Shown here: piece after piece, positions 19,892 to 43,827 of the stretch
Numbering within the stretch: position 1 is the first letter of the stretch
How the letters are laid out: every line of letters starts with the position of its first letter
NCBI RefSeq assembly: GCF_030160075.1
Contig: NZ_BSNQ01000003.1
Location: 2,086,383-2,150,382, forward strand
Length of the DNA stretch: 64,000 nt
From: Dyella lipolytica
GTDB taxonomy: Bacteria; Pseudomonadota; Gammaproteobacteria; Xanthomonadales; Rhodanobacteraceae
Direction of reading: 5' to 3'
The notes under the pieces: model-generated
What the model saw: only the letters and a program-made list of their open reading frames with translations
Databases searched by the model: none
What the model was told of the DNA's origin: nothing
Translations under genes and position numbers: made by a program

Positions 19892-19978
19892 CCGAACCAC
19901 CGTGCGCCTGCCATGTCCGCCTTCGGCAGGTGCACGCTTCCCGATAAGCTACGCCCTTTCCTTTCAACGGTTCCGCCC

Positions 19979-21193: not shown

Positions 21194-21295
21194 TCCGAAC
21201 AAATAGGCGTGATCACATGATCCCGTCAGGCGACAAAGCGCAGATCAGACTTGCTAGGGACTCATCAAATTTCGAGATCAATTAGGAACGCACTT

Positions 21296-23137
21296 ATGCC
21301 AGCATCCGCTCCAAAATCAGAAATTACTGGATACGGGATGCGTAATCGGTTGACCTGTGGCGTTGCAGTCATAGTGCTTATCGTAATTGGCGTCGTCTAT
21401 TGGCCTGTCATACATGCCGGATTTGTCTGGGACGATGTGCTCGACTTCGTCCAGATGGGGTGGCTCAGGCACGGAGATGAGTGGAAGCACTATATCTTCA
21501 AAGACTTCAACAACTGGCCAAATTACTTCAGACCGCTGGTCGTTGGGCTCTTTACGCTAGAGGTCCGCCTGTTCGATAGCAGCCCCGGTGCCATGCATGG
21601 CGTATCCCTCGCCATTCACCTGATCGACACGCTCCTTGTCGGCCTTTTGTCATGGCAGTGCAGCTCAGCGTTAGGAGATGATCTCAAACGAAGAACTTGT
21701 CTGCTCGCCATTTCAATGTTGCTCTATGGACTACATCCAGTATTGATCGAGCCGGTGACATGGATAGGCTGCCAGTTCGACCTCGCCGCAACAATGCTTA
21801 TGTTGCTGGGGTTGCTGGCAAACACTGTTATCCAGAATCACCTAACGCGCGCAACAGTCGTTGCAATCCTCTTTTTTCTTGCCGCCTGCTGCAAGGAATC
21901 GGCAGTCTCGTTTCCATTGATGATTGCAGTTTTTGATTGGGCCCTTATTCCAAGGCATTCGGAGGATGGGCGCCACCCTATCCGAACATTCATCAGGCGA
22001 AATTGGCAAACATATACCGCCATGTTTTTCGCCGGAATCATCTACCTTGCTTTCCGTCACTGGGCCCTGGGTCAAGTCCTCAACACGACCGGGGGCAGCT
22101 CAGCGTCCGCATTTGCGCGGCTGCAGGAAGTTTGCTTCATCTACCTGCATTACTGGCAGACGCTGTTCTGGCCCATGCATGGAATGAATCCCATCCATGA
22201 GATTGACGCCCAGCGATTTCAGACAACTTCCGCATCGTCCATCCTTATCGACGCGACAGCGATCTGCATCGTTGCTGCCGGCCTTTACTCAGCACTTAAA
22301 CACGCATCTCCGATGGGCTGCATCGTCATGATGATGACCGTCGCGCTGATTCCCGTACTGCACATCAGCTCAATAGCTTTCGCGGCCAGCCTTTACCACG
22401 AACGATATGTGATGACTTCTCTTGCGGGCATATGCGCAATGCTCCCGCTCATCCGCGCCCCCATCTATATCAGGCAACGTCAGTTGAAGTTTATTCCGTC
22501 ATCCGCAGTGATAGCCGGCTGTCTTTGGTTTGTACTTGCAGTAGTCGATATAAGGATGACGTTGCCACTATGGTCCAACAACGTGAGCTTTTGGCAATGG
22601 GCTCTCGCCGGCAATCCAGACTCCCTGGACGCAAAAGACAGCCTTCTCAGCGCTTACATTGATACTAAAGATTATGCCCATGCCCAACCGCTGGCGGATC
22701 AGCTCCTGACGGAACATGCTTCATGTGCCAATTGCATGTTGAATATCGCCATTCTAGCGGTCGCTAAAAACGATCCCGCACGCGCAGCGATTGCACTGGA
22801 GGAAGTGAGAAACTCCAAGGAAGTGGCTGCAGACGAACAAATGTACCGGATGTACCTCCTGACCACAGGCCAAATGTTGCTTTTGCAGGGCCATCCACAG
22901 GACGCTGACCAGATTTTTCGTGCCGCAATAGAACTGGATCCTCTGGATCCACAACCACAACTCTCGCTCGCCACTGCACTAGCGATGCAAGGCAAAGAAA
23001 GTGAGGCGCGATCGAGGGCTGAATCCGGGATCGCTTTGCTTTCGCCAGACATGCGTGACTCGGCACGCAGGGCGCTTAACAAAGCCATCGATTTAGACAT
23101 CAAGTTATCTCAACAAGTCAATCATTCAGAGAATTGA
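21296..23137 (+). CDS. TMTC-like GT-C membrane protein with C-terminal repeat domain (first of three)
   Basis: A 613-residue protein. About ten to twelve membrane helices cover residues 18-440, and a soluble alpha-helical tail with TPR-like units (DYAHAQPLADQLL, DPARAAIALEEV, DPQPQLSLATALAMQGK) fills the rest. Loop 1 carries YWPVIHAGFVWDDV with an acidic pair Asp46-Asp47, where GT-C glycosyltransferases keep their catalytic acid. GLHPVLIEPVTWIGCQFDLAATMLML and YHERYVMTSL match the HPxxxExVxWIxxRxDLL and R-x-x-Y blocks of TMTC-type O-mannosyltransferases. I infer a lipid-linked-sugar-dependent protein glycosyltransferase acting outside the inner membrane; target unknown. Codon use is AT-richer than in flanking genes. 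AGGA lies nine bases before the ATG. Confidence 0.75.
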   Translation: MPASAPKSEITGYGMRNRLTCGVAVIVLIVIGVVYWPVIHAGFVWDDVLDFVQMGWLRHGDEWKHYIFKDFNNWPNYFRPLVVGLFTLEVRLFDSSPGAMHGVSLAIHLIDTLLVGLLSWQCSSALGDDLKRRTCLLAISMLLYGLHPVLIEPVTWIGCQFDLAATMLMLLGLLANTVIQNHLTRATVVAILFFLAACCKESAVSFPLMIAVFDWALIPRHSEDGRHPIRTFIRRNWQTYTAMFFAGIIYLAFRHWALGQVLNTTGGSSASAFARLQEVCFIYLHYWQTLFWPMHGMNPIHEIDAQRFQTTSASSILIDATAICIVAAGLYSALKHASPMGCIVMMMTVALIPVLHISSIAFAASLYHERYVMTSLAGICAMLPLIRAPIYIRQRQLKFIPSSAVIAGCLWFVLAVVDIRMTLPLWSNNVSFWQWALAGNPDSLDAKDSLLSAYIDTKDYAHAQPLADQLLTEHASCANCMLNIAILAVAKNDPARAAIALEEVRNSKEVAADEQMYRMYLLTTGQMLLLQGHPQDADQIFRAAIELDPLDPQPQLSLATALAMQGKESEARSRAESGIALLSPDMRDSARRALNKAIDLDIKLSQQVNHSEN

Positions 23138-26730: not shown

Positions 26731-26763
26731 TACTTTTTGGGGAAACCAAGGGGGAATACAACC

Positions 26764-27204
26764 ATGTTGCGCCAGCGCAAGGCCACCGGCTTTACTTTGA
26801 TTGAGCTGATGATTGTGGTGGCGATCATTGCCATCTTGGCCGCCATTGCCATTCCGGCCTATCAGAATTACCTGATTCGGGCACAAGTTTCTGAGGGCGT
26901 GATATTCGCCGATTCCGCTAAAACGGCGGAGTGGGATTTCGTTTCCAACACCGGACGCATACCCAAGAACAATGCGTCGGTCGGGCTGTCGAGCCCCGCC
27001 TCCATCGCTGGCAAATACGTATCGAGTGTGGATCTTGCGCCCAACGGACAGATCACAGTGACCTTTAACGGCCCTCAAGCGAACACAGCCATTAACGGCC
27101 AGACATTGGTGCTTTCGGCGATTACTTCATCCGAGAGCATCAATTGGTCCTGCACCAACAGCTCGCTTCCGGACAAATACCTGCCGACCCTCTGCAGGCA
27201 TTGA
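26764..27204 (+). CDS. pilA: Type IV pilin, first of a tandem pair
   Basis: A 146-residue type IVa prepilin. A nine-residue leader (MLRQRKATG) precedes the PilD site G-FTLIE, with Glu5 of the mature protein in place, then the hydrophobic assembly helix. The C-terminus has the Cys pair of the D-loop (SCTNSSLPDKYLPTLC). The mature N-terminal 40 residues are almost identical to those of the second pilin, but codons differ at many synonymous positions and the head domain has diverged, so this is not a recent duplication. Codon use is less biased than in the second pilin, suggesting lower expression or a specialised or minor role. It has its own sigma-54 promoter. Confidence 0.9.
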   Translation: MLRQRKATGFTLIELMIVVAIIAILAAIAIPAYQNYLIRAQVSEGVIFADSAKTAEWDFVSNTGRIPKNNASVGLSSPASIAGKYVSSVDLAPNGQITVTFNGPQANTAINGQTLVLSAITSSESINWSCTNSSLPDKYLPTLCRH

Positions 27205-27532: not shown

Positions 27533-27979
27533 ATGAAGAGCATGCAGAAAGGCTTCACCCTGATCGAACTGATGATCGTGGTTGCGATCATCGCCATCCT
27601 GGCCGCCATTGCCATCCCGGCCTATCAGAACTATCTGATCCGCGCACAGGTTTCTGAAGGCGCCGTTCTTGGTAGCGCCGCCGAGACGTCGCTTGCTGAG
27701 TTCTACCAGAACACGGGGCACTTCCCCACTGTTCTCGCATCGTCCGGCTTGGCCACACCTGCCAGCGTTCAAGGTAAGTACGTGACAAGCGTTGATGGAA
27801 CCTCGACCGCGGGCGTAATCATCGCCGTATTCGGCAACCAGGCTAACTCTGCTATCAATGGTTCTCAGCTGGGCCTGTCTGCGATCACCTCCGGCGGTAC
27901 CGTTGCTTGGTCCTGCAACAACGCGCATACCACTGTCGCTGCCAAGTACCTGCCGACCTCTTGCCGCACCGGCGGCTGA
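27533..27979 (+). CDS. pilA: Type IV major pilin, second of a tandem pair
   Basis: A 148-residue type IVa prepilin with a seven-residue leader (MKSMQKG), cleavage at G-FTLIE, Glu5, the conserved N-terminal helix, and a C-terminal Cys pair ([18 protein letters not shown]). Codons end predominantly in C, as expected for a very highly expressed gene, so I take this to be the main fibre subunit. It has a good sigma-54 promoter upstream and a strong terminator 26 bases downstream that should insulate or dampen the TMTC-like genes that follow. The head is Ser/Thr-rich ([17 protein letters not shown]), which offers O-glycosylation sites; that is inference. Confidence 0.93.
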
Positions 27980-28004
27980 TACCAAGAAACTCCTCAGTAC
28001 TGCG

Positions 28005-28034
28005 AAGGGCCGCCACGTGCGGCCCTTCTTCTTT
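28005..28034 (+). terminator. Rho-independent terminator after the major pilin
   Basis: AAGGGCCGC (28005-28013) pairs with GCGGCCCTT (28019-28027) over a five-base loop, followed by CTTCTTT. It sits between the major pilin and the TMTC-like gene starting at 28045, the right place to let a little pilin transcript read through into the downstream genes. Confidence 0.85.
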
Positions 28035-28044
28035 CGGGTAGGCC

Positions 28045-30099
28045 ATGATGCAAAACCGCTTCACCGCGATGCCGCTTTTTCTGCTCTTGCTGCTTGCGTT
28101 TGTCTTTGCCGCCTATTGGCCTGGCCTACATGGCGGCTTCCTGTTCGACGATTTCGCCAACCTCCCGATACTGGGCGATACCGGCCCTATCGATAATTGG
28201 CCAGCATTCTGGCGCTATATCACTGCGGGAACAGCCGACCCGATAGGACGCCCACTAACACTGCTGAGCTTCCTACTCGACGCGCACAATTGGCCGGCGG
28301 ATCCACTCCCCTTCAAGCGCACCAACCTGATTTTGCATTTACTAAATGGTGCGTTGCTGACGTGGCTACTGCGGCGGCTGGGCCATATGCTCTTCCTGGA
28401 TACCGACCGTCGTCGCATCGACATGGCTGCGTTGCTCGGAGCCTCGCTATGGTTGGTGCATCCGCTGTTTGTTTCGACCACGCTTTACATCGTGCAGCGC
28501 GAAGCCATACTGCCAGCCACGTTTACGTTGCTTGGTCTCTTATCTTGGTTGCATGGACGTACAGCGCTCTTACATGGGCGCACGCTCTCAGGTTTAGCAT
28601 GGACTACGGTTGGATTGGGCGTTTGCACCTTGCTCGGGGTGCTTAGCAAGGCCAATGGCATTCTGCTGCCCGTCCTGGCACTGGTTATCGAATACACCTT
28701 ACTGCGCTCTGTCCCCCAAGACCCCCTTAGCAAAGGGAAGAATTCCGGCGTTTACCACAGGGCGATGCTCGCGCTTGCATGGCTGCCCGCGTCGATAGTC
28801 GCGGGTTATCTCCTGCAGCAAGGCGAGCATGGCCTTGTCCATGGCATTCCATCGATACGACCGTGGACATTGGGGCAGCGCTTGCTAACCGAACCGCGCG
28901 TATTGGTGGATTATCTCGATTTACTTTGGCTGCCGCGCCCGTTCACGCCGGGACTGTTCAACGACAATATCCAGGTCTCCACCTCGCTCTGGTCTCCCTA
29001 TACGACGCTACCCGCGTTACTCGTAGTGCTAGGGTTGATCGGATGTGCCCTGAAATTTCGCCGTCAGTTACCCGTACTGGCAGCAGCCACATTGTTCTAT
29101 TTCGTAGGTCAATCCATCGAGTCCAGCACCATTCCTTTGGAGCTTTATTTCGAACACCGCAATTACTTGCCGGCCATGCTTATGTTTTGGCCGCTGGCGT
29201 TGTGGTTGTGCAGCGTACGTCAGTCGAGGTTCACTGCCGCTCATACAGCAGCGGTATTCGCCAGCATAGCCCCCTCGATACGGCACAGGGCGAAGCTGGC
29301 ACTTGCGGTAGTGCTGTTGCTAGGCCTCGCCCTAATGACACATTCTAGTGCCGAATTGTGGGGCAATACACACGATCAGGCTTTGCTCTGGGCCGAGTTG
29401 AACCCTGACTCACCACGCGCGCAAGCCAATGCCGCGGTGGCAGAAAGAAACGCCGGTCACCCAGAGCATGCAGTTGTCCGCCTACAGCATTTACTCGTCA
29501 AGGATCCTAACCAAGTGCAACTGGCTTTGAACCTGTTCAATGCTGAGTGTCAAGTCGGCAGCATCGATCAAGCCACACTAACCGCCTCCCGAACCGCGTT
29601 ACGCACGGCCCGCGATACTGGCAGTCTGCTGGTGCATTGGTTTGAGAGAACCATGGAACAAGCCACTAACCCGCCTTGCCCCCAGTTGACCTTTCAGACC
29701 ATTGCAGACCTGCTGGATGCAGCTCAAGACAATAGGTATCTGGCAGATGTTCCGGGACGCCAGCAGGATCTCTACTACTTGCAAGGTCGGTTGGCGTTGA
29801 TGCAGAGCAATGCAAACGTCGCCCTCGCAGACTTTAATTATGCGTTAGACCTGAATGTACGTGCGCCAATAGCGCTTGAACAGGCGGCACTACTGGGCTC
29901 TATGGGTTATCAGCGCCAAGGGCTTGCGCATCTCGATCATTATGAAGCCGTACGGGATCGAACCGTTCCACCGAACATCGGTATGCCGCAGGTACACGCG
30001 TGGATACTGCAACATCAACAGTACTGGCCCAAAGAAATGGCACACTTGCGCACTACACTGAGTGAAGATGCTAGCAACCCACTGCTCGGTGGCAAATGA
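28045..30099 (+). CDS. TMTC-like GT-C membrane protein with C-terminal TPR-like domain (second of three)
   Basis: A 684-residue protein. About twelve membrane helices fill residues 8-435 and a soluble helical tail follows. The first external loop reads YWPGLHGGFLFDDFANL with acidic residues Asp35-Asp36. VHPLFVSTTLYIVQREAILPATFTLLG and EHRNYLPAMLM correspond to conserved TMTC blocks. The tail (NPDSPRAQANAAVAERNAGH, ALADFNYALDLNVRAPIALEQAALLG) is TPR-like. GT-C enzymes of this type use a polyprenyl-phosphate sugar donor and modify proteins or glycans on the outer face of the membrane. Position directly behind the major pilin makes pilin glycosylation the leading hypothesis. It overlaps the next paralogue by four bases (ATGA). 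Confidence 0.78.
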   Translation: MMQNRFTAMPLFLLLLLAFVFAAYWPGLHGGFLFDDFANLPILGDTGPIDNWPAFWRYITAGTADPIGRPLTLLSFLLDAHNWPADPLPFKRTNLILHLLNGALLTWLLRRLGHMLFLDTDRRRIDMAALLGASLWLVHPLFVSTTLYIVQREAILPATFTLLGLLSWLHGRTALLHGRTLSGLAWTTVGLGVCTLLGVLSKANGILLPVLALVIEYTLLRSVPQDPLSKGKNSGVYHRAMLALAWLPASIVAGYLLQQGEHGLVHGIPSIRPWTLGQRLLTEPRVLVDYLDLLWLPRPFTPGLFNDNIQVSTSLWSPYTTLPALLVVLGLIGCALKFRRQLPVLAAATLFYFVGQSIESSTIPLELYFEHRNYLPAMLMFWPLALWLCSVRQSRFTAAHTAAVFASIAPSIRHRAKLALAVVLLLGLALMTHSSAELWGNTHDQALLWAELNPDSPRAQANAAVAERNAGHPEHAVVRLQHLLVKDPNQVQLALNLFNAECQVGSIDQATLTASRTALRTARDTGSLLVHWFERTMEQATNPPCPQLTFQTIADLLDAAQDNRYLADVPGRQQDLYYLQGRLALMQSNANVALADFNYALDLNVRAPIALEQAALLGSMGYQRQGLAHLDHYEAVRDRTVPPNIGMPQVHAWILQHQQYWPKEMAHLRTTLSEDASNPLLGGK

Positions 30100-32156
30100 A
30101 TTTACTCAATACGATAAAGCCTGCGATGCAATTCAATCGGCCTGGATGGGCTCTGTTGCTTGCCGCACTTGCGCTGACCGTCGCCGTCTATTGGCCCGGA
30201 CTGACGGGAGCATGGTTTTTCGACGACTATCCGAACATCGTCGATAACCATGGTGTACAACCATCCAGTGCAAGCGTGCCATCGCTGATCAATGCGGCAC
30301 TCTCCTCTCCCTCCAGCGAATTCAAGCGCCCTCTCGCATCACTGAGCTTTGCTGCAAACTATCTCTTTACCGGGCTCACCCCTTACTGGATGAAGCTGAC
30401 CAATCTGGTCATCCACCTTTTGAACGGTTTATTGGTGTTTCTGCTTTCACGGCAGCTGTTGTTCGCTGCCACGACATTGAACTGGCGGAGTGATTCCAAG
30501 GGGACGATCACTTCTGATGTGCCGCGAAATGCGAGAGATAGAACGACTCAAGTAGAGCTGAATGCCGCACTTATTGCCACAGGCTGGATGCTGTTGCCGA
30601 TCAACCTGACGGCCGTGCTTTACATAGTGCAGCGCATGGAGAGCATGGCCAATCTGTTTGTCCTGCTGGGGTTAATGGGTTACGTCGCTAGCCGACAGCG
30701 AATGTTGGAATTCAATTGCAGCAGCGATGCCACGCTTTCCGAATCACTTTTCGGCCGCGCAAATGAAATGCGTATGAGTAGCATCATGCGATGTGCCGTC
30801 AGCATCATTATCCCGACCGCCATCGGTCTTCTCGCGAAGGAAACAGCGGTGATGCTGCCGCTATATGCCCTTCTGATTGAATGGGTACTATTTCGCTTCA
30901 AAACGTTATCTGGGAAATACGATTTAGGTATTACGGCGCTTTTTCTGCTCGTTCTTTTTTTACCCATGGTTGTCGGACTTACATGGTTGGTCCCAGGCCT
31001 ACTGAACCCACAAACCTGGGCCGCGCGTGATTTCACGCTGAGCACACGGCTTCTCAGCGAAGTGCGTATCGTAACGAACTACATCGCTTGGAGCCTGCTA
31101 CCCACACCTCAAGATCTATCGTTTTACCACGACGACTTCCGTATTTCGACTGGATTGCTTTCCCCTTGGACAACGCTCGCCAGCATGCTCGCGCTGATTG
31201 GTTTAATCGCCATAGCGATAACGCAGCGGTCTCGTCGCCCACTTGTAGCTCTTGGTATTGGGCTTTTTCTGGCTTGCCACCTTTTGACAGGCACCATTAT
31301 TCCGCTTGAGCTGATCTACGAGCATCGCAACTACTTTGCCAGCTTTGGATTGTTGCTGGCCGTGATACCCATGCTATCGGCGATCGCTCCAATGTCTTCG
31401 GAGAAATCAACACGATTTGTGCTATCTCGCCGAGTGCTACTCGTTGGCTTGTTATTGCTGTGGGGCAGCGAGACCGCCCTTACCTCGATCGCCTGGGGAA
31501 ATCCATTGCGACTTGCTGAAGAACTGGCCGCCCGCGCTCCCGATTCACCTCGTGCAGAGTATGAGCTGGGACGCACCTATATTATTTATTCAGACTACGA
31601 TCCGGCTTCGCCATTCACCAAGCTGGCCTATGCACCATTGGAGCGTGCAGCAGCGCTTCCAGGCGCATCGATTCTGGCCGAACAAGCGCTTATCTTCATG
31701 AACGCTCGCATGGACTTGCCGCTCAAGGACGCTTGGTGGGACAGCCTAATCGCAAAGCTCAAGGCGCATAAAACCACTGTGCAGGACGAAAGCTCGCTGG
31801 CCACATTGACTCAATGCGCTCGGGAGCACAGCTGCAACCTGCCCAAAGATCGCATGATGGCAGCTTTCATGGCCGCCCTCTCTCATCCAGATCCCGATGC
31901 GCGGCTACTCGCCAATTATGCGGATTACGCGTGGAACGTACTGGATGACAGGCCACTTGGTGAACGAATGGCCGAAGAAGCCGTAAAAGCAGATCCACGC
32001 GAGCCAGCTTATCGCATCACTTTGATCCGCATGCTGGCCGTTCAGGGTCGCAAAGCCGATGCGCTCGACGCCCTGCAAAAGCTAGAGTCGCTCAACATTG
32101 GTGGCCGGCTCAATAGTGATTTGGCCAAGCTTCATACGCTGCAGGGCTTGCAATGA
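30096..32156 (+). CDS. TMTC-like GT-C membrane protein with C-terminal TPR-like domain (third of three)
   Basis: A 686-residue paralogue of the preceding protein, translationally coupled to it. YWPGLTGAWFFDDYPNIVDN holds the acidic pair Asp43-Asp44. FKRPLASLSFAANY, MKLTNLVIHLLNGLLVFLL, LYIVQRMESMANLFVLLGLMGY and YEHRNYFASFG follow in the same order as in the other two members. A loop of about 40 polar residues (NWRSDSKGTITSDVPRN) is inserted between helices and is not seen in its neighbour. The C-terminal 180 residues are soluble and helical. Two adjacent but divergent paralogues suggest two acceptors or two successive sugars; this is inference. Confidence 0.78.
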   Translation: MNLLNTIKPAMQFNRPGWALLLAALALTVAVYWPGLTGAWFFDDYPNIVDNHGVQPSSASVPSLINAALSSPSSEFKRPLASLSFAANYLFTGLTPYWMKLTNLVIHLLNGLLVFLLSRQLLFAATTLNWRSDSKGTITSDVPRNARDRTTQVELNAALIATGWMLLPINLTAVLYIVQRMESMANLFVLLGLMGYVASRQRMLEFNCSSDATLSESLFGRANEMRMSSIMRCAVSIIIPTAIGLLAKETAVMLPLYALLIEWVLFRFKTLSGKYDLGITALFLLVLFLPMVVGLTWLVPGLLNPQTWAARDFTLSTRLLSEVRIVTNYIAWSLLPTPQDLSFYHDDFRISTGLLSPWTTLASMLALIGLIAIAITQRSRRPLVALGIGLFLACHLLTGTIIPLELIYEHRNYFASFGLLLAVIPMLSAIAPMSSEKSTRFVLSRRVLLVGLLLLWGSETALTSIAWGNPLRLAEELAARAPDSPRAEYELGRTYIIYSDYDPASPFTKLAYAPLERAAALPGASILAEQALIFMNARMDLPLKDAWWDSLIAKLKAHKTTVQDESSLATLTQCAREHSCNLPKDRMMAAFMAALSHPDPDARLLANYADYAWNVLDDRPLGERMAEEAVKADPREPAYRITLIRMLAVQGRKADALDALQKLESLNIGGRLNSDLAKLHTLQGLQ

Positions 32157-32237: not shown

Positions 32238-33425
32238 ATGAATATTGATCAATCGCCAGGTACTTCAGACGCGACAAGTTCGCTCGAAGAAAACAATGGA
32301 GCGATCCGCGTTCTGTTACTGAGCACGTCCTATCCCCGTGACACTTCAGACTGGCGCGGGGTCTTTATGCGACATCTCGTCGGTGCACTTGGCCGCGCAG
32401 GTGAGTTGAAGCTTAGTGTTTGGGCGCCACCGGGCGAACTACCTGCCGCGGCGATACCGATTATGACGCCGCATGAGAATGCCTGGCTCCACCAATTGAT
32501 GGAGGCCGGAGGGGTTTCACACTTGATGCGTAGTCGCGGCAAGCACGCAATATCGGCCCCACTTAAGTTAATTCTAATGATTCGCGCGGTTTATCGCCGC
32601 CATGTTGATACAGACATTTATCACATCAATTGGCTGCAATGTGCTCTACCTTTGCCAAGCAACAACAAGCCTGCGCTAATTACTGTCTTAGGAAACGATC
32701 TTAAGCTTTTGCGCCTTCCATTCATGAAAAGCTTGCTCAGGCGAGTGGCTAAGAAACACAAAGCAGCGATATGCCCAAATGCCGAGTGGATGCACGCACC
32801 ACTTCACGCCGCATTCGGAGACGTAGCTAAAGTAATCCCCGTATCATTTGGAATCGACCCATGCTGGTACGCTATACAGCGCCACTTGTCATTAGAGAAA
32901 CCCAAGCACTGGCTTGCCGTCACACGCTTGACCGCTGACAAGCTCGGGCCTTTGTTCGATTGGTCACGCGACCTGTTCAGCGAAAGCGGCCGCGAGCTAC
33001 ACCTGTTCGGCCCGATGCAAGAGATGATTGCTGTTCCCCCATGGGTGCACTATCACGGCGCCGTGTCACCAGAACAGTTGGCGACAAAGTGGTTTCCCAG
33101 TGCACAGGGCCTAATCACGCTGAGTCGCCATGCAGAGGGGAGACCGCAAGTGATGCTTGAGGCAATGGCAGCAGGGCTACCCATCATTGCATCGCATATG
33201 CCGGCGCATGCGACGATTGTTGACGATGGAAATACGGGCATCCTTTGCGAGTCATACGAAGACTTTCAACTCGCTCTGAAGACACTGGAAGATAATACTA
33301 CTAACGTCCGTTTCGGCTCGGCCGCACGCGCTTGGGTAAGCCGTGAGATGGGCACATGGGATGATTGTGCCCAACGCTATATTCGAATATACCGATCGCT
33401 GCTTCGGAATGACACCAGTGAGTGA
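32238..33425 (+). CDS. GT4-type glycosyltransferase
   Basis: A 395-residue GT-B-fold glycosyltransferase. The N-terminal half has VLLLSTSYPRDTSDWRGVFMRHLVGAL and HINWLQCALPLP. The C-terminal half has LAVTRLTADKLG, LHLFGP and the donor-binding EGRPQVMLEAMAAG (E-x7-E), followed by HATIVDDGNTGILCESYED. It would add a hexose from a nucleotide sugar on the cytoplasmic side. The first 20 residues are poorly conserved and the true start may lie slightly inside. It overlaps the following epimerase gene by 17 bases. Acceptor and donor unknown. Confidence 0.82.
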   Translation: MNIDQSPGTSDATSSLEENNGAIRVLLLSTSYPRDTSDWRGVFMRHLVGALGRAGELKLSVWAPPGELPAAAIPIMTPHENAWLHQLMEAGGVSHLMRSRGKHAISAPLKLILMIRAVYRRHVDTDIYHINWLQCALPLPSNNKPALITVLGNDLKLLRLPFMKSLLRRVAKKHKAAICPNAEWMHAPLHAAFGDVAKVIPVSFGIDPCWYAIQRHLSLEKPKHWLAVTRLTADKLGPLFDWSRDLFSESGRELHLFGPMQEMIAVPPWVHYHGAVSPEQLATKWFPSAQGLITLSRHAEGRPQVMLEAMAAGLPIIASHMPAHATIVDDGNTGILCESYEDFQLALKTLEDNTTNVRFGSAARAWVSREMGTWDDCAQRYIRIYRSLLRNDTSE

Positions 33426-34344
33426 ACATATTCTTGTTTTTGGTGCCGGCGGTTTCGTGGGCCGCCATTTGGTGCGCGCACTGGTGGAACAAGGGCACAA
33501 GGTGATCGCCATCAGTCACCACCCAATAACCTTTGGCGAAGCAGGTGTCGAGACCGTAATTGGCGAACTGAACAAACCTGAGCAGTTCGCGCCATTGATT
33601 GACCGAAGCCGCGTAGTTGTACATCTCGCATCTCGGTCCACTCCCGGCAACTCCGCGGGTCGCGTAATGGCAGAGTTACAAAACAACCTTCAACCTACAT
33701 TCGCGTTGCTAGAAGCTCTGCAGGATAAGCCCAAGACAGAGCTACTTTACCTATCTTCAGGTGGAAGTCTGTACACAACGGCACCAACCGAGCTTACGAC
33801 GGAATCTGCAACCACGCATCCGCGCTCCTACCATGGCGCAGGCAAAGCCGCCGCCGAGCATTTCATATTTGCTTGGTGTAGTCAGTTCGGCGGTGCTGCT
33901 ACTGTATTGCGACCATCCAACATTTACGGCCCCGGCCAAACCGAGCGCGCCGGATTTGGCATCGTCCCAACCAGCTTCGGAAAGATTGTTCGCGGAGAAC
34001 ATCTTACCGTCTGGGGCGACGGCACAGCGATACGCGACTATCTTTACATTGATGACTTCCTATCGCTCTGCATGGCCATTCTCACCTCACCAATGCCACC
34101 TGGTATGCGTGTACTCAACGCGGCTAGCGGCATCGGGATCAGTCTTAATGACCTGTTCAAGGTCTTGGAGAATGTTACCGGACGACAACTGCCACGTATT
34201 TATGATGCGGGTCGTAAAGTTGACGCACTTCGAGTGGTTATGGATGTCGCCTTGGCCCATGAATATTATGGCTGGGAGCCGTTGACTTCATTACATGAGG
34301 GATTGAGACAGACATGGGACTGGTTCACCACTACCCAGCGCTGA
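33409..34344 (+). CDS. NAD-dependent sugar epimerase/dehydratase, unusual active site
   Basis: A 311-residue extended-SDR sugar-nucleotide enzyme. GAGGFVGRHLVRAL binds NAD, LYLSSGGSLY holds the catalytic Ser region, and RPSNIYGPGQ, WGDGTAIRDYLYIDDF are typical of UDP-glucose 4-epimerase relatives. The usual YGxxK reads SYHGAGK here, so the residue aligned with the catalytic Tyr appears to be His, with a Tyr one place earlier. It may be a modified epimerase or a poorly active enzyme. The start at 33409 overlaps the GT4 gene, and its 3' end overlaps the GT2 gene by 31 bases. Confidence 0.8.
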   Translation: MTPVSEHILVFGAGGFVGRHLVRALVEQGHKVIAISHHPITFGEAGVETVIGELNKPEQFAPLIDRSRVVVHLASRSTPGNSAGRVMAELQNNLQPTFALLEALQDKPKTELLYLSSGGSLYTTAPTELTTESATTHPRSYHGAGKAAAEHFIFAWCSQFGGAATVLRPSNIYGPGQTERAGFGIVPTSFGKIVRGEHLTVWGDGTAIRDYLYIDDFLSLCMAILTSPMPPGMRVLNAASGIGISLNDLFKVLENVTGRQLPRIYDAGRKVDALRVVMDVALAHEYYGWEPLTSLHEGLRQTWDWFTTTQR

Positions 34345-35363
34345 AACGCCTGCAGACCCCTACATGCTCGGTTTGTATAGCCAACTACAATGGCGATGCT
34401 TTGTTGGTCGATTGCTTGGACTCCGTTCTAGCCCAACAAGGGAGCGACTGCATTGAGATCATTGTGCATGATGATGCTTCGACTGACGGCTCAGTTCGAT
34501 TACTGCGCGAAAAATATCCTCAGGTTGAATTACTCGTAAGTGCAGAGAATGTCGGATTTTGTGTCAGCAACAATCGCATGGCAAACCATGCTCGCGGTGA
34601 ATACATATTGCTGCTGAACAATGACGCGGCCCTCTACAATGACGCACTTTCAACACTGCTGGAAAATGCACGCAAGCAACATGCCCCCGGCATTTTGACA
34701 CTTCCGCAGTATGACTGGATCACCGGCGCACTAGTTGATCGAGGCTGCCTGCTTGACCCTTTTTACAATCCCGTGCCAAATCTCGACCCTGAGCGGCACG
34801 ATGTCGCGATGGCGATAGGCGCATGTCTATTCCTATCGCGCAAACTTTGGATTGACCTAGAAGGATTCCCTGATTGGTTCCAATCCATCGGTGAGGACAT
34901 GTATTTGTGCTGCCTTGCGCGCCTACAAGGATTACCCGTGCAAGTTACTTCCAGCAGCGGATATCGACATCGTCAAGGAATCAGCTTTGGTGGAAACCGC
35001 GTCTCTTCAGGAACGCTCCAAACCAGCTTTCGTAGACGTCAACTAAGCGAACGAAACAAGTGCTCTACATTATTAATTTGCACACCCACCGCCATCGTGT
35101 GGCCACTGTGGCTGCTGCACCAACTTCTCTTGTTGCTGGAAGGTGGCATTTTGACTTTTCTTAAACACGATCGGCGCATATGGCTAGAAATCTACTGGCC
35201 GACCCTCAAGCACGTGCATGCTGCGATGCCCGCGCTAAAAGCACGGCGGCGTCAAGTACAATCGAAAAGACAAGCAACGCTAACAGACTACTTATCCGCC
35301 TTTGCTTCAGCGCCTCAAAAGCTCCGGCTCTTGTTGCGCCACGGCTTTCCCACGATTCGTTGA
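34314..35363 (+). CDS. GT2-family glycosyltransferase (rhamnosyltransferase-like)
   Basis: A 349-residue GT-A-fold enzyme. CSVCIANYNGDALLVDCLDSVLAQ, IIVHDDASTDGS, NVGFCVSNNRM and LLLNNDAALY are the ordered family blocks, with the metal-binding DxD-like motif as NDA. AIGACLFLSRKLW and GEDMYLCCLARLQG resemble the rhamnosyltransferase branch. A C-terminal hydrophobic stretch (WPLWLLHQLLLLLEGG) may dip into the membrane. It is last in the plus-strand set and converges on the flippase gene with 28 bases between. Confidence 0.83.
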   Translation: MGLVHHYPALKRLQTPTCSVCIANYNGDALLVDCLDSVLAQQGSDCIEIIVHDDASTDGSVRLLREKYPQVELLVSAENVGFCVSNNRMANHARGEYILLLNNDAALYNDALSTLLENARKQHAPGILTLPQYDWITGALVDRGCLLDPFYNPVPNLDPERHDVAMAIGACLFLSRKLWIDLEGFPDWFQSIGEDMYLCCLARLQGLPVQVTSSSGYRHRQGISFGGNRVSSGTLQTSFRRRQLSERNKCSTLLICTPTAIVWPLWLLHQLLLLLEGGILTFLKHDRRIWLEIYWPTLKHVHAAMPALKARRRQVQSKRQATLTDYLSAFASAPQKLRLLLRHGFPTIR

Positions 35364-35391: not shown

Positions 35392-36909
35392 TCAGTCTAT
35401 CCAGCTGAGCATTTTGAGTGCGCGTGCTCGAATTATTGGCGCCGCGAGTGCAGCCACCGTCAAAAGTAATAAGGCATAGGAAAGAAGTGCCGCAACTTCT
35501 AGTCGTTGCCCTAAATGCGCTGGGGAAAGTAAGCGTAGCAACAACCCTGCTAGGACGGCTGCCGCAAGCGGCACTCCCACATCCCTTACGTACCAATGCC
35601 ATTTTTCGCGAGGCAGAAGTCTACGGTGCATGAGTGGTATCACTACTACGATGTAAGAAATATTCAAAACCAACCATACCCATGCAGCCGCCGTTACCCC
35701 ATACCTAGGAACGAGCATCAATAATGCCGGCACCACTACGACTAATGCCACTGCGTTAATGCGAACAGTCAAACCCGTCCAGCCATATGAAAGCTGAAGA
35801 TAGTAGGGAATCGTCATTAGTCCGTTAAACAGGCTGCCACAAGATAAAATTGCAGCAATTACATATATTCGATCAGATAACACTGCACTCTTTGTCCAAA
35901 CCTCTAAAAGCTCATGGCCAAACATGACGATAAAGACCGTTGCGGTTCCTAATAGCACAGTGATCAATTGTGCTGCCGAGTGATAGGCGTTAGCCAAGGC
36001 AGGCTGCTGGCCATTGCTATGCAATTGTGTGAAGCGAGGATAGAAAGCCTGTGCGATTGGGTTAACTAGGCCCAGCGGTGTCTGCGCCACGACAACCGCA
36101 AAAGCGTAGTAGCCAAATGTTTCCAGCGATAACAAACGAGAAAGTAAAATTTTATCCATATTGCTGAGTAGTAGCGAAATGCAGGTAATCGCCATCGTGC
36201 CCGCCGCGAAACGTCGAACACCCTGCAGCGCATTGAATGAAAATGATGCCGGCACCGCCTCATGTGGCAAAAGCGAATAGGTCGCCGCAGCAAGTGCGCC
36301 GATGCCTATCGCAGAAACAGTAAGCTGCCACAAAAAGAATGCCTGAATTGAGTTTGCGACCAACGCGAGAACTACAACTGCGCCGAGACCACGCAGCGTC
36401 GCCATTACACCAATAACCAAGTTCATGAGAACCTGCTTTTGCAAACCGATCATGGCGCTGCGATATACATTCTCAATAATGCGCAAACCCACCAGGCAAC
36501 CCATGATTACTAGTGCGTGCGCAACCGCATCTATAGAGAGATTTTTCGTCACAAACCAATCATTTGCCAACCATGAAGATGCTAACCAGAGACCCGTCAT
36601 CATCGCTAGCGCAATGCAAGTCGAGACAACTTCAACACTGCGCAGCAGAGTGCGAGCCGAGGAAGTGCTATCCGCACTACTATTTAAACGAGCCATCTCT
36701 CGGCTGATAGTTGGCGCCATGCCTAGATCTAGTAACGACAGCAATCCTTGAAGCATGGCAAAAACGCCGATCAGGCCATACGCCTCTATCCCGAGATATC
36801 GAATATAGAGCGGCACAAACGCCAAATTCATCAGCGCCGTCCAACCAGTGCCCAGATAGTTAGCAACAATATTTTGCTTCAAGCCCACTTCAAACACCCG
36901 CTCTCGCAT
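35392..36909 (-). CDS. wzx: Wzx-type polysaccharide/lipid-linked oligosaccharide flippase
   Basis: A 505-residue integral membrane protein with about 12-14 helices and the PF01943/MOP-superfamily start NIVANYLGTGWTALMNLAFVPLYIRYLGIEAYGLIGVF. Such proteins flip undecaprenyl-linked glycans to the periplasmic face. The ATG at 36909 is chosen; a GTG six codons upstream is possible. It is the last gene of the long minus-strand row that begins at 44.7 kb. In this context it would supply either an O-antigen unit or the donor for the TMTC-like enzymes. No Wzy polymerase or WaaL ligase is seen in the window. Confidence 0.85.
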   Translation of the reverse strand: MRERVFEVGLKQNIVANYLGTGWTALMNLAFVPLYIRYLGIEAYGLIGVFAMLQGLLSLLDLGMAPTISREMARLNSSADSTSSARTLLRSVEVVSTCIALAMMTGLWLASSWLANDWFVTKNLSIDAVAHALVIMGCLVGLRIIENVYRSAMIGLQKQVLMNLVIGVMATLRGLGAVVVLALVANSIQAFFLWQLTVSAIGIGALAAATYSLLPHEAVPASFSFNALQGVRRFAAGTMAITCISLLLSNMDKILLSRLLSLETFGYYAFAVVVAQTPLGLVNPIAQAFYPRFTQLHSNGQQPALANAYHSAAQLITVLLGTATVFIVMFGHELLEVWTKSAVLSDRIYVIAAILSCGSLFNGLMTIPYYLQLSYGWTGLTVRINAVALVVVVPALLMLVPRYGVTAAAWVWLVLNISYIVVVIPLMHRRLLPREKWHWYVRDVGVPLAAAVLAGLLLRLLSPAHLGQRLEVAALLSYALLLLTVAALAAPIIRARALKMLSWID

Positions 36910-36987
36910 GAAGACCCATACCGGCACGGCAAATACGAGTTTGGCTTGGAAGAGATCATACAGACCTGTATGGAGCCTCCCCTTCGC

Positions 36988-37752
36988 TCACTTGATTCGA
37001 CGCAAAAATGCGTTCGGCCAGTAAGTGACACGCTCGGTAATGTTTCCCTCATTGAACAGGAAGACAGGCTCTTCGAGAATGAAATCGCTACGTGCTTCAA
37101 GAAAGTCCTTGACTGCAGATTGTGGATTGTCTGATATCCATTCTGGTTTGGTACGCTCCGCACCTACTATTTCTTGCATTATCCCGTCGCAGGCGACGAT
37201 ATACGAACCCGGTGCCACCATATCTGCGTAAGCATGTAGTTCAGCTAGCACGTGCTCTCTCGAATGATTGGAATCGAGAATAACCATGCATCGATCTTCA
37301 GGTCTTACTAGATCATGGACCTTGTCGATGATCCCTGCGTCAATCGATGATCCTTCCAGCATCGTGATTCGCTCGAACATCTCGTGCGACTCGATAGCCT
37401 TCCGATTGTGGGGACGGATTTCAATGTCAACGCCGATAACACGACCGTGGCCCATAGCTTTCATCAAGCTCGCATAGAAGATAAGGCTACCGCCATGGGC
37501 GATTCCTGTCTCGATTACGACATCCGGCTTCACAGCATAGATTAGCTCTTGTATACGAAGCATATCTTCGGGCAATTGAATGATCGGACGCCCCATCCAA
37601 CTGAACCCGTACACGTATTTGGCATCCCATCCACTTCTAAGCCATGCGCGCGAAATCAAATGGAATGCCTCGGGAGAACCGATGGCAACGGTTCTAACCC
37701 CCTCTAATGAGTCTATGTGAACAACACCTTGCTCCAAATCAATCTTCAGCAT
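36988..37752 (-). CDS. CmcI-like cephalosporin-hydroxylase-family sugar O-methyltransferase
   Basis: A 254-residue protein of the RMNT/CmcI family (PF04989). VVIETGIAHGGSLIFYASLM is the SAM-binding glycine loop, VIGVDIEI the acidic strand end, and VILDSNHSREHVLAELHAY plus YIVACDGIM the metal and substrate region. Members O-methylate rhamnose and related sugars in bacterial glycans. Here it would methylate a sugar hydroxyl of the island glycan, perhaps capping the chain. It overlaps the following epimerase gene (its upstream neighbour on this strand) by seven bases. Confidence 0.82.
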   Translation of the reverse strand: MLKIDLEQGVVHIDSLEGVRTVAIGSPEAFHLISRAWLRSGWDAKYVYGFSWMGRPIIQLPEDMLRIQELIYAVKPDVVIETGIAHGGSLIFYASLMKAMGHGRVIGVDIEIRPHNRKAIESHEMFERITMLEGSSIDAGIIDKVHDLVRPEDRCMVILDSNHSREHVLAELHAYADMVAPGSYIVACDGIMQEIVGAERTKPEWISDNPQSAVKDFLEARSDFILEEPVFLFNEGNITERVTYWPNAFLRRIK

Positions 37753-38558
37753 CTTATTTGTTTCCTGTACTCGGTTACCAAGGCCGCCAAGATAGGCAGC
37801 ACCGAAGTTGGCTCAAACGAAAATTCGGTTTTCAACCGATCGATATTAATCGACGGCGAAGTATCGACAGGCGCACCCACTCGTACGGTTAGACTTGCGC
37901 CTGAGGCAGACTGTATTGGTTTCAATAGGTCTCTGTGCGAGATACTTCTACCTGATGCTACGTTATAGCAGTTGTATTTACCGCTAAGAGCGATCTTTGG
38001 AAGGATATCGACTACGTCATCAAGGTATATGTAGTCTTTACTAGAATCCAGCGAAGTCCGCAGTTCGATAATGCCTTTTTCGCATGCGTCCCGGATAATC
38101 TCGAACACAAAATTCTTTGAGCGAAAGTCACTCCCGAGCACATTGGCAAGCCGGGCTATGCGCACTCCTTGACGGCCGCTGGCATAACAAATCGCTTCAC
38201 CTGTGAGTTTTGTAAGATCATAGAGTTGATCTGGTTCGTCCGAACGCAATGAAATAGCAGCTGACTCTTGCCCATGACCGGCGTGTCGATATAGTCGCGT
38301 CGATGAAAGGTACAAAAACGAGTCGAAGTCGGCTTCCTTAAGGACGCGTGCTGCAACCGTGGTATTCGCGTCCAGAGTGTCGAATGGACGTTCACGAAAA
38401 TCTGCCGTCACACCCGCCGCGTAAATGATGTGCCCCGGCTTGCTAGGTAGCTCGATGGTGTCACGCGATGTCGTTAGAACTTCGAAACCCATAGCGCGCA
38501 TTTTTTTGACTAAAGCACCGCCAATGAAGCCCGTGGCCCCAATCACTGTAAACCTCAT
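37746..38558 (-). CDS. NAD-dependent epimerase/dehydratase, probable 4-ketoreductase
   Basis: A 270-residue extended SDR. MRFTVIGATGFIGGALV binds the cofactor, YLSSTRLY gives the catalytic Ser, and YDLTK is the intact YxxxK. DYIYLDDVVDILP resembles reductases that finish deoxysugar synthesis. In the order rfbF-rfbG-rfbC-C-methyltransferase-acetyltransferase-reductase it most likely reduces the 4-keto group of a CDP-6-deoxy-hexulose. The frame extends upstream, but the ATG at 38558 overlaps the acetyltransferase gene by four bases and begins the Rossmann fold. Confidence 0.8.
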   Translation of the reverse strand: MRFTVIGATGFIGGALVKKMRAMGFEVLTTSRDTIELPSKPGHIIYAAGVTADFRERPFDTLDANTTVAARVLKEADFDSFLYLSSTRLYRHAGHGQESAAISLRSDEPDQLYDLTKLTGEAICYASGRQGVRIARLANVLGSDFRSKNFVFEIIRDACEKGIIELRTSLDSSKDYIYLDDVVDILPKIALSGKYNCYNVASGRSISHRDLLKPIQSASGASLTVRVGAPVDTSPSINIDRLKTEFSFEPTSVLPILAALVTEYRKQIRC

Positions 38559-39043
38559 ACCCTCGTACCCAGCATACGCAGCGGATTGCCTCCATACACT
38601 CCATAGCTTTCGAGCACGCCTCTTATTACAGAGCCGGCTCCGATCACACATCCATTCCCGACCCTCGCTCCATCGAGGGCTACGCAATTAGCTCCGATCC
38701 ATACATCGTCACCGATTTCGATGCCCCCCTTACTGGGCCGAAAGCCTTGAGCGACAATTAGAACATCGCGCTTCAGGTATTCATGATTGACCGGCGCAAA
38801 TGTGCAATTTGCTGCAATCGCCACGTCCTTGCCGATGCGGATGCCGTTGCCGGTGTAGAACACGCAGCCTGAATTGACGACCGTGCCGGCACCGATCTCA
38901 AGATCACCGCTACCGCCAGCAGGCTTAATTTTGACGAATGCATCAATCGCAACACGCTCACATATTTTGATGCGCGTGCCTCGAATCGAGTCTTCGATAT
39001 CTGCTAGCGGAGAAATCTTGGCGGATGGGTCGATGATTAACAT
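38555..39043 (-). CDS. Hexapeptide-repeat acyltransferase
   Basis: A 162-residue left-handed beta-helix protein with repeated hexapeptides (IKICERVAIDAFVKI, LEIGAGTVVNSGCVFY, IRIGKDVAIAANC, IEIGDDVWIGANCVALDGARVGNGCVIGAGSVI). Active-site His is expected in FAPVNHEYL. WIGANCVAL and the ending VYGGNPLRMLG are typical of the sugar O-acetyltransferases of polysaccharide clusters. It presumably acetylates the deoxysugar or the finished glycan using acetyl-CoA. Coupled by overlaps to the genes on both sides. Confidence 0.85.
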   Translation of the reverse strand: MLIIDPSAKISPLADIEDSIRGTRIKICERVAIDAFVKIKPAGGSGDLEIGAGTVVNSGCVFYTGNGIRIGKDVAIAANCTFAPVNHEYLKRDVLIVAQGFRPSKGGIEIGDDVWIGANCVALDGARVGNGCVIGAGSVIRGVLESYGVYGGNPLRMLGTRV

Positions 39044-40272
39044 GCGGGTATAACGCTCAGCTGCGGCACAGCCGTAACGAAGGAACCTCCCCAGTTCCTG
39101 ATATAAGCCAGTTGCTGCATGATCTCACTTTTTAGATTCCAAGGAAAAATAACCACATAACTCGGCTTATGCTGCAACAGATGTTCTTCCGATACGATCG
39201 GAATCCGGCTACCTGGTAAATATTTACCCTGCTTTGCTGGGTTTTTGTCGACTACGAAAGCCAACAAATCACCCCGGACGCCGGCAAAATTCAGCAGCGT
39301 ATTTCCCTTTGCGGCGGCACCATAAGCCACCACCTCCTTACCCTCTCGCCTAGCCTTAAGCAAGAAGCCAAGGAACTCATTTTTGACGACCTCCGCTCTA
39401 GCTTGAAAATCCGCGTAGAAGGCAGGATTCCGGACACCAGCGCTTGCCTCCTGCTGTAGGAGACGTTCAACGCTGTCACGTATTGTGCGCCTCCCCGTAT
39501 CGCTACGTTGACAAAACACTCGCAAGCTACCTCCATGCGTCGGCAACTGCTGCACTTCATACGCAACCAAGCCATTGTCGGCAAAGATCTTATTGACGGC
39601 GGTCATCGAAAGATATGAAAAGTGCTCGTGATATACCGTGTCAAACTGATTTTCCGCCATCAGCTCAAGCAGGTGTGGAAATTCGAAAGTCACAACACCA
39701 TGCGGCTTTAGTAGTACGGCGAAGCCCGCCACAAAATCATTGATATCGGGTACATGCGCTAACACATTGTTAGCCACCATCAAATCAGCCTGCCTACCCT
39801 CTTCCAGGAGCGCTTTGGCCAATCGAACGCTAAAAAAGTCCTCAACTACAGGCAATCCTTTGGCACGAGCACTTTGCGCTGTACTGGCCGTTGGTTCAAT
39901 GCCCAGACAGGGAATCTTGTGTTGTTTGAAATACTGCAACAACGAGCCATCATTCGCAGCGACTTCGACGACGTGGCTGTCTGGCCCCAAGTCAAATCTC
40001 GCGATCATCGTTGTGACATATTGCTCGCAATGATTGAGCCAACTGATAGAAAAACCGCTGAAATAAGCATACTCGCGGTCAAAAAGTTCGCTCGCCTCAG
40101 AAAAATCTTCGGTCTGTGCCAACCAGCACTCGCGGCAAACAAGCACGGAAAGTGGAAACCACTTCTCAGGTCTCTTTAGCGAGTCAAGGGACAAATACGC
40201 ATTGGACGGGGGCGTGCTGCCGAGGTCCACTAACGATAGGTCCAGATGCGCGCCGCAATGTCGACAATTCAC
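39037..40272 (-). CDS. SAM-dependent sugar C-methyltransferase (TylCIII/NovU-like)
   Basis: A 411-residue, three-domain enzyme. The N-terminal zinc-binding part has CRHCG and VCRECWLAQT. The central Rossmann domain has VVEVAANDGSLLQYF and LMVANNVLAHVPDINDF, with the active-site HEHFSYLS. The C-terminal domain has VVAYGAAAKGNTLLNF and VVIFPWNLKSEI. This order (PF08421, PF13489, PF08484) defines the C-3 or C-5 methyltransferases of nucleotide-linked 4-keto-6-deoxysugars. Start is a GTG overlapping the rfbC stop (GTGA). With rfbF and rfbG it points to a CDP-linked branched 6-deoxyhexose. Confidence 0.87.
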   Translation of the reverse strand: MNCRHCGAHLDLSLVDLGSTPPSNAYLSLDSLKRPEKWFPLSVLVCRECWLAQTEDFSEASELFDREYAYFSGFSISWLNHCEQYVTTMIARFDLGPDSHVVEVAANDGSLLQYFKQHKIPCLGIEPTASTAQSARAKGLPVVEDFFSVRLAKALLEEGRQADLMVANNVLAHVPDINDFVAGFAVLLKPHGVVTFEFPHLLELMAENQFDTVYHEHFSYLSMTAVNKIFADNGLVAYEVQQLPTHGGSLRVFCQRSDTGRRTIRDSVERLLQQEASAGVRNPAFYADFQARAEVVKNEFLGFLLKARREGKEVVAYGAAAKGNTLLNFAGVRGDLLAFVVDKNPAKQGKYLPGSRIPIVSEEHLLQHKPSYVVIFPWNLKSEIMQQLAYIRNWGGSFVTAVPQLSVIPAC

Positions 40273-40832
40273 GCTTTAACTCCATCAAAAGCATCAGTTA
40301 ACTTTGGATGTGCCAGGTCGCGAGGTGAAAGTCCCGTTACGGGTTGCGGCCAATTGATGCCAATCCTGGGGTCTTCCGGATGCAACCCGCGCTCATGTGA
40401 TGGCTCATAGGTTTCTGTATGGACATAGAGCATCTCGCAATTTTCGACCAAAGTCTGAAATCCATGAGCGAACCCTTCAGGGATAAGCAGGGCCAGACCA
40501 TTCTCCGCACTGAGTGTCGCCGCATACCAATGGAGGAATGTTGGAGAACCTTGGCGCACGTCGACCGCAACGTCAAAAACACTCCCACGCAGGCAAGATA
40601 CGAGTTTAAGCTCTGCATACGGGGATAACTGGAAATGCATCCCTCTGACCGTGCCACGCTCTTGCGTCAGGGTTCGATTTATTTGCACGATCGTGCGCTG
40701 CCCAATTTGCTCGCGAAAGTCGTGCGCGTCGTAGATGCGCTCAAGGTAACCACGTTCGTCTCGGCGTTGCTTGCGCCGGATCAGCATTAACCCCGAAAGC
40801 GGCGTTTCATCTATATCGAAGCGCTCACTCAT
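40269..40832 (-). CDS. rfbC: dTDP-4-dehydrorhamnose 3,5-epimerase-family protein (RfbC-like)
   Basis: A 187-residue cupin-fold epimerase. RRDERGYLERIYD, VQINRTLTQERGTVRGMHFQ (with the catalytic His), KLVSCLRGSVFDVAVDVR and LLIPEGFAHGFQTL are the RmlC-family blocks. In this operon its substrate is more likely a CDP-4-keto-6-deoxyhexose than dTDP-sugar, because the adjoining genes are cytidylyl enzymes and no rmlA, rmlB or rmlD is present in the window. It overlaps rfbG by eight bases. Confidence 0.85.
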   Translation of the reverse strand: MSERFDIDETPLSGLMLIRRKQRRDERGYLERIYDAHDFREQIGQRTIVQINRTLTQERGTVRGMHFQLSPYAELKLVSCLRGSVFDVAVDVRQGSPTFLHWYAATLSAENGLALLIPEGFAHGFQTLVENCEMLYVHTETYEPSHERGLHPEDPRIGINWPQPVTGLSPRDLAHPKLTDAFDGVKA

Positions 40833-41898: not shown

Positions 41899-41900
41899 AG

Positions 41901-43679: not shown

Positions 43680-43827
43680 CAACTCATGATCGTGTAATGC
43701 ATAACCGGCTGCAGCTAGCGCTGCTCGACAACCATGACCGATGGATATGCCCAACCTTAGGCGACTAGTCAGAACATCCGCAGTCGATCTACACGCAACC
43801 TATTTGATGTAGCACAACCACCTCGGT

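Follow-up and report, generated by a model that had tools for sequence, protein, structure and literature searches.

A 64,000-nucleotide stretch (the window) of the 4.05-Mb genome of Dyella lipolytica, of the family Rhodanobacteraceae, was found to encode, directly behind a type IV pilin gene, two coupled membrane proteins, P0001 and P0002 (T1 and T2). Each is predicted to join an N-terminal glycosyltransferase of the GT-C superfamily to a C-terminal tail of tetratricopeptide repeats (TPR). Because a GT-C shape is predicted and relatives often lie beside pilus genes, transfer of sugars to the pilus is the most likely role of T1 and T2. In the reading preferred here, given a probability of roughly 0.78 on sequence and structural models, they would be inner-membrane glycosyltransferases of the GT-C type that carry their TPR tails in the periplasm, are dedicated to the upstream pilin and depend on a lipid-phosphate-sugar. 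The evidence consists of gene content, linkage, co-occurrence, predicted fold, motif conservation and covariation of T1 with the pilin. An earlier note on this DNA had proposed TMTC-type pilin O-glycosyltransferases; by GT-C fold, TPR tail and pilin linkage the pilin glycosyltransferase role is still the likeliest one, but TMTC membership was not borne out, and mannose as the sugar is unsupported.

Predicted fold and conserved residues

The two open reading frames (ORFs) of 684 and 686 aa lie 3′ of a PF00114 pilin gene, and the T1 stop and T2 start overlap as ATGA, in line with the coupled pair of large proteins described earlier. AlphaFold models (predicted local distance difference test score 90.5 for T1 and 90.7 for T2) match the GT-C enzymes OST, PMT, ArnT and PglB over approximately 305–360 residues in VIA-align, a re-examination of Foldseek candidates, and place a C-terminal TPR solenoid behind the GT-C core. 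In these models T1 and T2 are built as GT-C plus TPR, with the fold of the GT-C superfamily, as the earlier note had anticipated. Membership of the TMTC family was sought through PF08409 (DUF1736) and rejected: a search of the own genome at E ≤ 10 gave no hit where the T genes lie, and Pfam did not find this family in P0001–P0003; ‘TMTC-like’ is a description of the build, GT-C then TPR, and not of family membership. Searching the own genome with P0001 returned itself, P0002 (32% identity) and a more distant relative, P0003 (T3; 25%, E 3.3e-7, residues 2–175 only). A search of P0002 against plasmid records gave no match.

Blocks claimed to be shared by the three proteins were confirmed in part: YWP..DD and HER/EHRNY occur in all three, but HPxxxExVxWI is literal only in P0003, P0001 and P0002 carrying ..LYIVQR. 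The polar set of T1 comprises DD35/36, R69-P70, Q151-R152, K202, D307 and E370-H-R-N-Y, and Ala replaces the Glu of the KE motif. Motifs were counted in 74 T1-clade and 120 T2-clade proteins from 104 loci, without deduplication (certain named loci share their species with a G locus; L090 and L120 are one contig), under clade labels that are approximate (supports 0.893 and 0.627; several first-position KE proteins fall within the T2 clade). DD was present in 74/74 T1 and 120/120 T2, QR was likewise invariant, and R-P and EHRNY were nearly so. The KE motif was kept in 119/120 T2, while in T1 it read KA in 49, KE in 20, KP in three and KG in two. Class-wide, among the 72 T ORFs of 560–760 aa and with X letters excluded, DD was found in 68 (another three are gapped) and KE in 70, so that the loss of Glu in T1 is probably derived. 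In a modelling study of TMTC proteins the Glu of KE is assigned to metal binding and the Lys to phosphate binding (PMC7801869).

Loci with a single transferase kept the Glu in 16 of 17 cases, and 46 of the 47 loci with a Glu-less T1 (distinct pilins) carried a KE T2 alongside, which supports a division of labour between the two. As most T1 proteins have lost this conserved Glu, T1 may serve T2 as a specificity partner. The exception, L060, has a lone Glu-less T1, which argues either for T1 activity independent of T2 or for decay of the system at this locus.

Linkage to pilins and layout of the locus

Within the family, P0001 had a match at E ≤ 1e-10 in 160/197 genomes; a T profile matched 160/299 genomes of the order, family included, at E ≤ 1e-20 and 83/274 genomes of the class at E ≤ 1e-30. 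Regions were chosen from the listed matches (40 of the 160 positive family genomes, 35 from other families of the order, and the best-scoring 60 of the 83 positive class genomes), and flanking pilins were recognised by a prepilin-motif pattern and not by a family model. A pilin lay close upstream of the first T in 38/40 family regions of up to 20 kb; of the two others, L049 breaks off within a pilin and in L071 none was seen. The same arrangement was seen in 65 of 79 named contigs. In the 35 regions from other families a pilin was found within 1 kb in 30, in two more a T encoded on the other strand adjoins pilins, and three had none, two of these being 7-kb contigs. The class regions gave a pilin within 1 kb in 37 and elsewhere in the region in four, and 13 were cut by a contig end. 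The expectation that homologues would lie near pilA elsewhere was thus well supported in family, order and class.

A GT2-type gene adjoining pilB, named GT2c, accompanies the transferases. It scored 113 bits against AglJ (cut-off 325), 68 against PpgS, 64 against dolichyl-phosphate hexose transferase and 58 against PgfS; all scores are below cut-off, so the likeness is a family-level hint and not an assignment. The C-terminus has two hydrophobic segments. GT2c was present in all 21 family regions showing pilB, and across the 197 family genomes (GT2c at E ≤ 1e-70) 155 had T and GT2c, five T only, six GT2c only and 31 neither (Fisher p 5e-25, kinship ignored). A GT2c-like gene (>45% identity) was found in 44 of the 60 class regions, in 40 of them at most 300 bp 3′ of a T, the typical order being pilin, T, GT2c. 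For T2 as a possible donor-specific partner of GT2c, the distances of the two correlated at r 0.743 (37 loci), but only at 0.288 (n 15, p 0.125) and 0.299 (n 27, p 0.026) after controls.

In the T-less family genomes pilB was sought in 20 of 37 and matched in 17, and 11 regions with PilB of at least 65% identity were read. Where the pilA–pilB interval was visible (L179–L183), pilins were present, with no T and no GT2c; pilin and pilB were less than 250 bp apart in four and about 3 kb apart in L181, with unidentified ORFs between them. All five genomes lacked a GT2c match, and the three within the order sample lacked a T profile match. Five regions were cut by a contig end (L176–L178, L184, L185), with GT2c in L176 and L185 and GT2c-like and T2 fragments in L184. 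In L186 (G056) GT2c adjoins pilB and no T occurs in the approximately 18 kb read upstream.

In six metagenome-assembled genomes of Proteobacteria (L135, L137, L141, L143, L149, L155) the order by best match was T2, T1, GT2c. A GT4 gene follows in L135, L149 and L155, and no pilin was seen within the locus in L149 and L155.

In the window the genes from corC to pilBCD are an Lnb-like gene, P0003, corA, an S9 peptidase gene, two pilins, T1, T2, three plus-strand sugar genes, a minus-strand block of deoxysugar, flippase and glycosyltransferase genes, and GT2c (Table 1). The G+C content is approximately 0.60–0.65 across the first 20 kb versus 0.48–0.54 at 30–44 kb. A pilin does lie directly upstream of T1, as had been said, but two pilin genes are present, either of which may be the major one; the ORF of the second starts at a TTG at 26737, the ATG listed being the likelier start. 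T1 occupies the position of a pilin accessory gene, directly 3′ of the pilin with a terminator-like hairpin in between (the terminator was examined in the window only); in Pseudomonas pilin-accessory cassettes a terminator separates pilin and accessory gene (PMC11841053). Such terminator-like sites are not in regional excess, seven being found versus 5.9 expected from shuffles. The CDP-glucose 4,6-dehydratase and glucose-1-phosphate cytidylyltransferase (40825–42671, minus strand) exceeded their NCBIfam cut-offs, and together with the C-methyltransferase and the CmcI-type methyltransferase these CDP-sugar genes probably point to a methylated or branched deoxysugar.

Table 1. Features of the pilin and sugar gene region in the window.
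Feature	Position	Strand	Basis or remark
P0003/T3, distant third relative	21251..23137	+	KES, HERY; TPR above Pfam cut-off; loosely linked
Second pilin gene	26764..27204 (about)	+	Prepilin motif and similarity; mature Ser63 present (NASVGL)
Pilin gene, PF00114	27533..27979	+	E 4.5e-21; top-scoring solved relatives are Neisseria PilE
Mature Ser63 codon (LASSGL), candidate acceptor	27740..27742	+	Alignment to PilE Ser63; acceptor role inferred
Intrinsic-terminator-like hairpin, 10-pair stem, pilin/T1 gap	28004..28028	+	Longest stem among 7 such sites
T1, 684 aa, GT-C (about 1–450) and TPR (about 454–680) membrane protein	28045..30099	+	ORF, AlphaFold, motifs
T2, 686 aa, architecture as T1	30096..32156	+	ORF, AlphaFold, motifs; KE motif intact (K248 E249)
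GT4-type glycosyltransferase, variable island gene	32238..33425	+	
NAD-dependent sugar epimerase/dehydratase family protein	33343..34344	+	
GT2-type glycosyltransferase	34314..35363	+	
MOP/Wzx-type flippase-like protein	35392..36927	-	
CmcI-type methyltransferase, epimerase, C-methyltransferase, RmlC-like epimerase, CDP-glucose 4,6-dehydratase, glucose-1-phosphate cytidylyltransferase	36988..42671	-	
GT2-type glycosyltransferase	42699..43754	-	
GT2c, conserved island gene, adjoins pilB	43828..44688	-	Resembles polyprenyl-phosphate-sugar synthases, below NCBIfam cut-offs

P0003 is 3.6 kb from the pilins, with corA and the S9 peptidase gene intervening; its ORF starts with TTG, the inner ATG at 21338 being the likelier start. 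The pilin role once proposed for this third protein is not upheld, as it is only loosely linked to pilins. Several other Dyella loci (L034, L036, L080, L086 and L089, of which L036 and L089 are one species) have a T3-type protein directly upstream of the pilins, unlike the window. The usual position of lnt is behind corC, and a gene for an Lnb-like lipoprotein N-acyltransferase lies directly 3′ of corC at 19913–21193 (plus strand; NCBIfam 174 bits, cut-off 550). Two LNT_N proteins are encoded elsewhere in the own genome.

Pilin type, candidate acceptor and proposed pathway

Distances between the first T and the nearest pilin were strongly correlated in Mantel tests on loci with at least two T and a control gene, identical first T being removed (r 0.775, 0.756 and 0.804; n 37, 15 and 54; p 0.001 each). 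The second T gave 0.062, -0.087 and 0.175 (p 0.03 for the last), and other genes 0.006 (GT2c), -0.105 (PilB) and 0.107 (S9). Within the Glu-less group the T1 parts gave 0.44 and 0.37 with the pilin and the T2 parts 0.50 and 0.52; within the KE group the values were 0.64 and 0.54 for T1 and 0.64 and 0.63 for T2. Exchange of pilin and T1 as a cassette would explain the pairing, with functional matching as our preferred reason and physical linkage as the alternative. The TPR tail, earlier named as the recognition element, was rejected as the pilin-tracking part. Its correlation with the pilin given the GT-C part was 0.226 (59 pairs) and, within types, 0.151 (p 0.076) and 0.091 (p 0.247), so its divergence tracks the pilin no better than that of the GT-C part, for which the values given the TPR were 0.403 overall and 0.289 and 0.404 within the two T1 types.

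Mature Ser63 of the window pilin aligns with Ser63 of Neisseria PilE (the best PDB rows), which is an O-glycan site within Asn-Thr-Ser-Ala-Gly (PMC3643930). In distinct pilin sequences, the T-less side having several pilins per genome as well as distant types, Ser occupied the site in 40/47 Glu-less T1 loci, 8/19 KE T1 loci, 6/29 with T2-like proteins only and 1/30 T-less pilins, the alignment of distant pilins being uncertain. When the N-x-x-(A)-G motif was required the counts became, in the same order, 36/43, 4/4, 4/7 and 0/5 (Glu-less T1 vs T-less, Fisher p 0.0005, kinship ignored). Of the seven exceptions among the Glu-less T1 loci, five carry the Ser in another pilin; the remaining two are L060 and L144. 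Ser/Thr content of the pilins beyond residue 30 was not useful (0.228 in 68 with T vs 0.197 in eight without).

Several observations weigh against the preferred reading. Plain Foldseek gave no row at E ≤ 0.001 and ranked TPR chains first. At the sequence level no Pfam or NCBIfam model fitted the membrane part of T1–T3, and the search for a GT-C family or solved structure, which also used HMMER profiles against the PDB, gave only TPR or chance matches. A pilin was absent from six of the 60 class regions although these were not cut short. T and GT2c were discordant in 11/197 family genomes, among them G059 (T only) and G157 (GT2c only) at 100% completeness. Within T1 types the second T tracks the pilin no worse than T1 does; the pairing therefore holds between types and could stem from co-transfer of a cassette. 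Neither of the L060 pilins has Ser63, nor does the single pilin seen in L144, and only 7/20 motif-matched pilins class-wide have the Ser, which rules it out as an acceptor common to all members of the family.

The reaction, the polyprenyl-phosphate donor, the membrane side, the acceptor, the order of events and the division of labour we infer as follows. GT2c would load a sugar onto polyprenyl phosphate on the cytoplasmic side, the island glycosyltransferases would possibly extend the glycan, a flippase would turn the lipid-linked glycan to the periplasm, and T1/T2 would transfer it to a pilin Ser/Thr prior to filament assembly, in the paired systems perhaps to Ser63 in the alpha-beta loop. 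Transfer en bloc or as a single sugar would both be compatible, and a constant GT2c beside variable other glycosyltransferases would suit a glycan with a constant first sugar. With its full motif set T2 would be the likelier catalytic partner, and T1, paired with the pilin type, the likelier specificity partner. A more far-reaching version, which we regard as doubtful, would see a large unrecognised gammaproteobacterial pilin glycosylation cassette of pilin, TMTC-architecture transferase and polyprenyl-monophosphate sugar synthase. Duplication in Lysobacterales would there have given a heterodimer of a Glu-less specificity T1 and a catalytic T2, moving a variable oligosaccharide en bloc from a monophosphate carrier onto Ser63 where present.

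Alternatives and related systems

The alternative that survives best, though unlikely, is that T1 and T2 are periplasmic GT-C enzymes decorating a surface polysaccharide or lipopolysaccharide, their place near pilA being explained by the nature of the island as a polysaccharide locus. Deoxysugar, glycosyltransferase and flippase genes in the island fit this, and three-component Gtr/GT136 systems, comprising a polyprenyl-phosphate-sugar synthase, a flippase and a GT-C enzyme, are established for the O antigen (PMC11127046), an acceptor that sets them apart from the system proposed here. Against it, a pilin is still the neighbour in other families and across the class, where the flanking sugar genes differ, the type of the first T tracks that of the pilin, and the five T-less control genomes retain pilins and PilB without GT2c.

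Considerably less probable are non-catalytic, GT-C-shaped accessories of pilus assembly resembling TfpY. TfpY-type accessories share the position behind pilin and terminator (PMC11841053), and 54/74 T1 have lost the KE glutamate; yet DD, R-P, QR, K and EHRNY are retained almost throughout, a polyprenyl-phosphate-sugar-synthase-like gene travels with T1/T2, and the TfpY-like proteins described are three-segment proteins, one of 244 aa (PMC11841053). Equally improbable is a Wzy_C-type ligase encoded elsewhere that glycosylates the pilin, T1/T2 only adding to or trimming the glycan: the own genome has three Wzy_C proteins over cut-off, but none of the three lies inside the window and no PglL_A match was found in the own genome at E ≤ 0.01, an absence that is not decisive because TfpO and TfpM, as described in part of a review, are without PglL_A too (PMC12645811).

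GT-C glycosyltransferases of the pilin are thus preferred, and a precedent is available. TfpW of Pseudomonas Pa5196/PA7 is a GT-C pilin arabinosyltransferase encoded behind the pilin gene (PMC12369383). Like the role proposed for T1/T2, it is a GT-C enzyme behind a pilin gene that modifies the pilin; it differs in adding D-arabinofuranose, a comparison made by description alone. To our knowledge TfpW has neither a TPR tail nor a tandem pair. A GT-C pilin transferase behind pilA is therefore already known, and T1/T2 stand apart by their fusion to TPR, their frequent occurrence as a tandem pair and the pilin–T–GT2c cassette. Beyond the earlier note, the analysis adds the synthase-like partner gene, the pairing of T1 and pilin types, the loss of Glu in most T1 and the candidate acceptor Ser63.

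The eukaryotic O-mannosyltransferases TMTC1–4 likewise combine an N-terminal GT-C part and C-terminal TPR in one chain, and their loop 1 DD, R-P, KE(T/Q) and E-x-x-x-Y block (PMC7801869) were mapped onto T1/T2 in this analysis, KE being kept in T2 but in few T1; T1/T2 differ in having no PF08409 match and a pilin as linked target. The nearest logic to the pilin–T–GT2c cassette is, by analogy, the Pgf system of Streptococcus mutans (PgfS, PgfM1, PgfE, PgfM2), in which a GT2-type synthase, a PMT-type membrane protein and an epimerase are encoded beside the modified adhesin (PMC5856776). It is Gram-positive and its target is Cnm, and TPR are unmentioned in the part of that paper available (PMC5856776). 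The O-oligosaccharyltransferases PglL, PglS, TfpO/PilO and TfpM glycosylate pilins in the periplasm, as proposed for T1/T2, and several are encoded beside the pilin, PglL using PilE Ser63 (PMC3643930, PMC12645811). They resemble WaaL/O-antigen ligases, as do all four classes in the sections seen of a 2025 review (PMC12645811), whereas P0001–P0003 had no Wzy_C match in Pfam at E ≤ 1. No paper on a GT-C/TPR pilin transferase was found, a weak negative drawn from open-licence papers only. Variable pilA types are reported for Xanthomonas vasicola, with no mention of ‘tetratricopeptide’ in the part of the paper available (PMC4235730), and in Pseudomonas pilin glycans protect against some pilus-specific phages (PMC11841053, PMC12369383).

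If the preferred reading is true, the enzymes known to modify pilins would gain a TPR-bearing GT-C class that is also common (83/274 sampled class genomes). The proteins would be easily deleted bacterial counterparts of the TMTC architecture and would offer a natural test of the function of TPR tails in GT-C enzymes. They would also account for the variable sugar islands that this family carries in the pilA–pilB interval.

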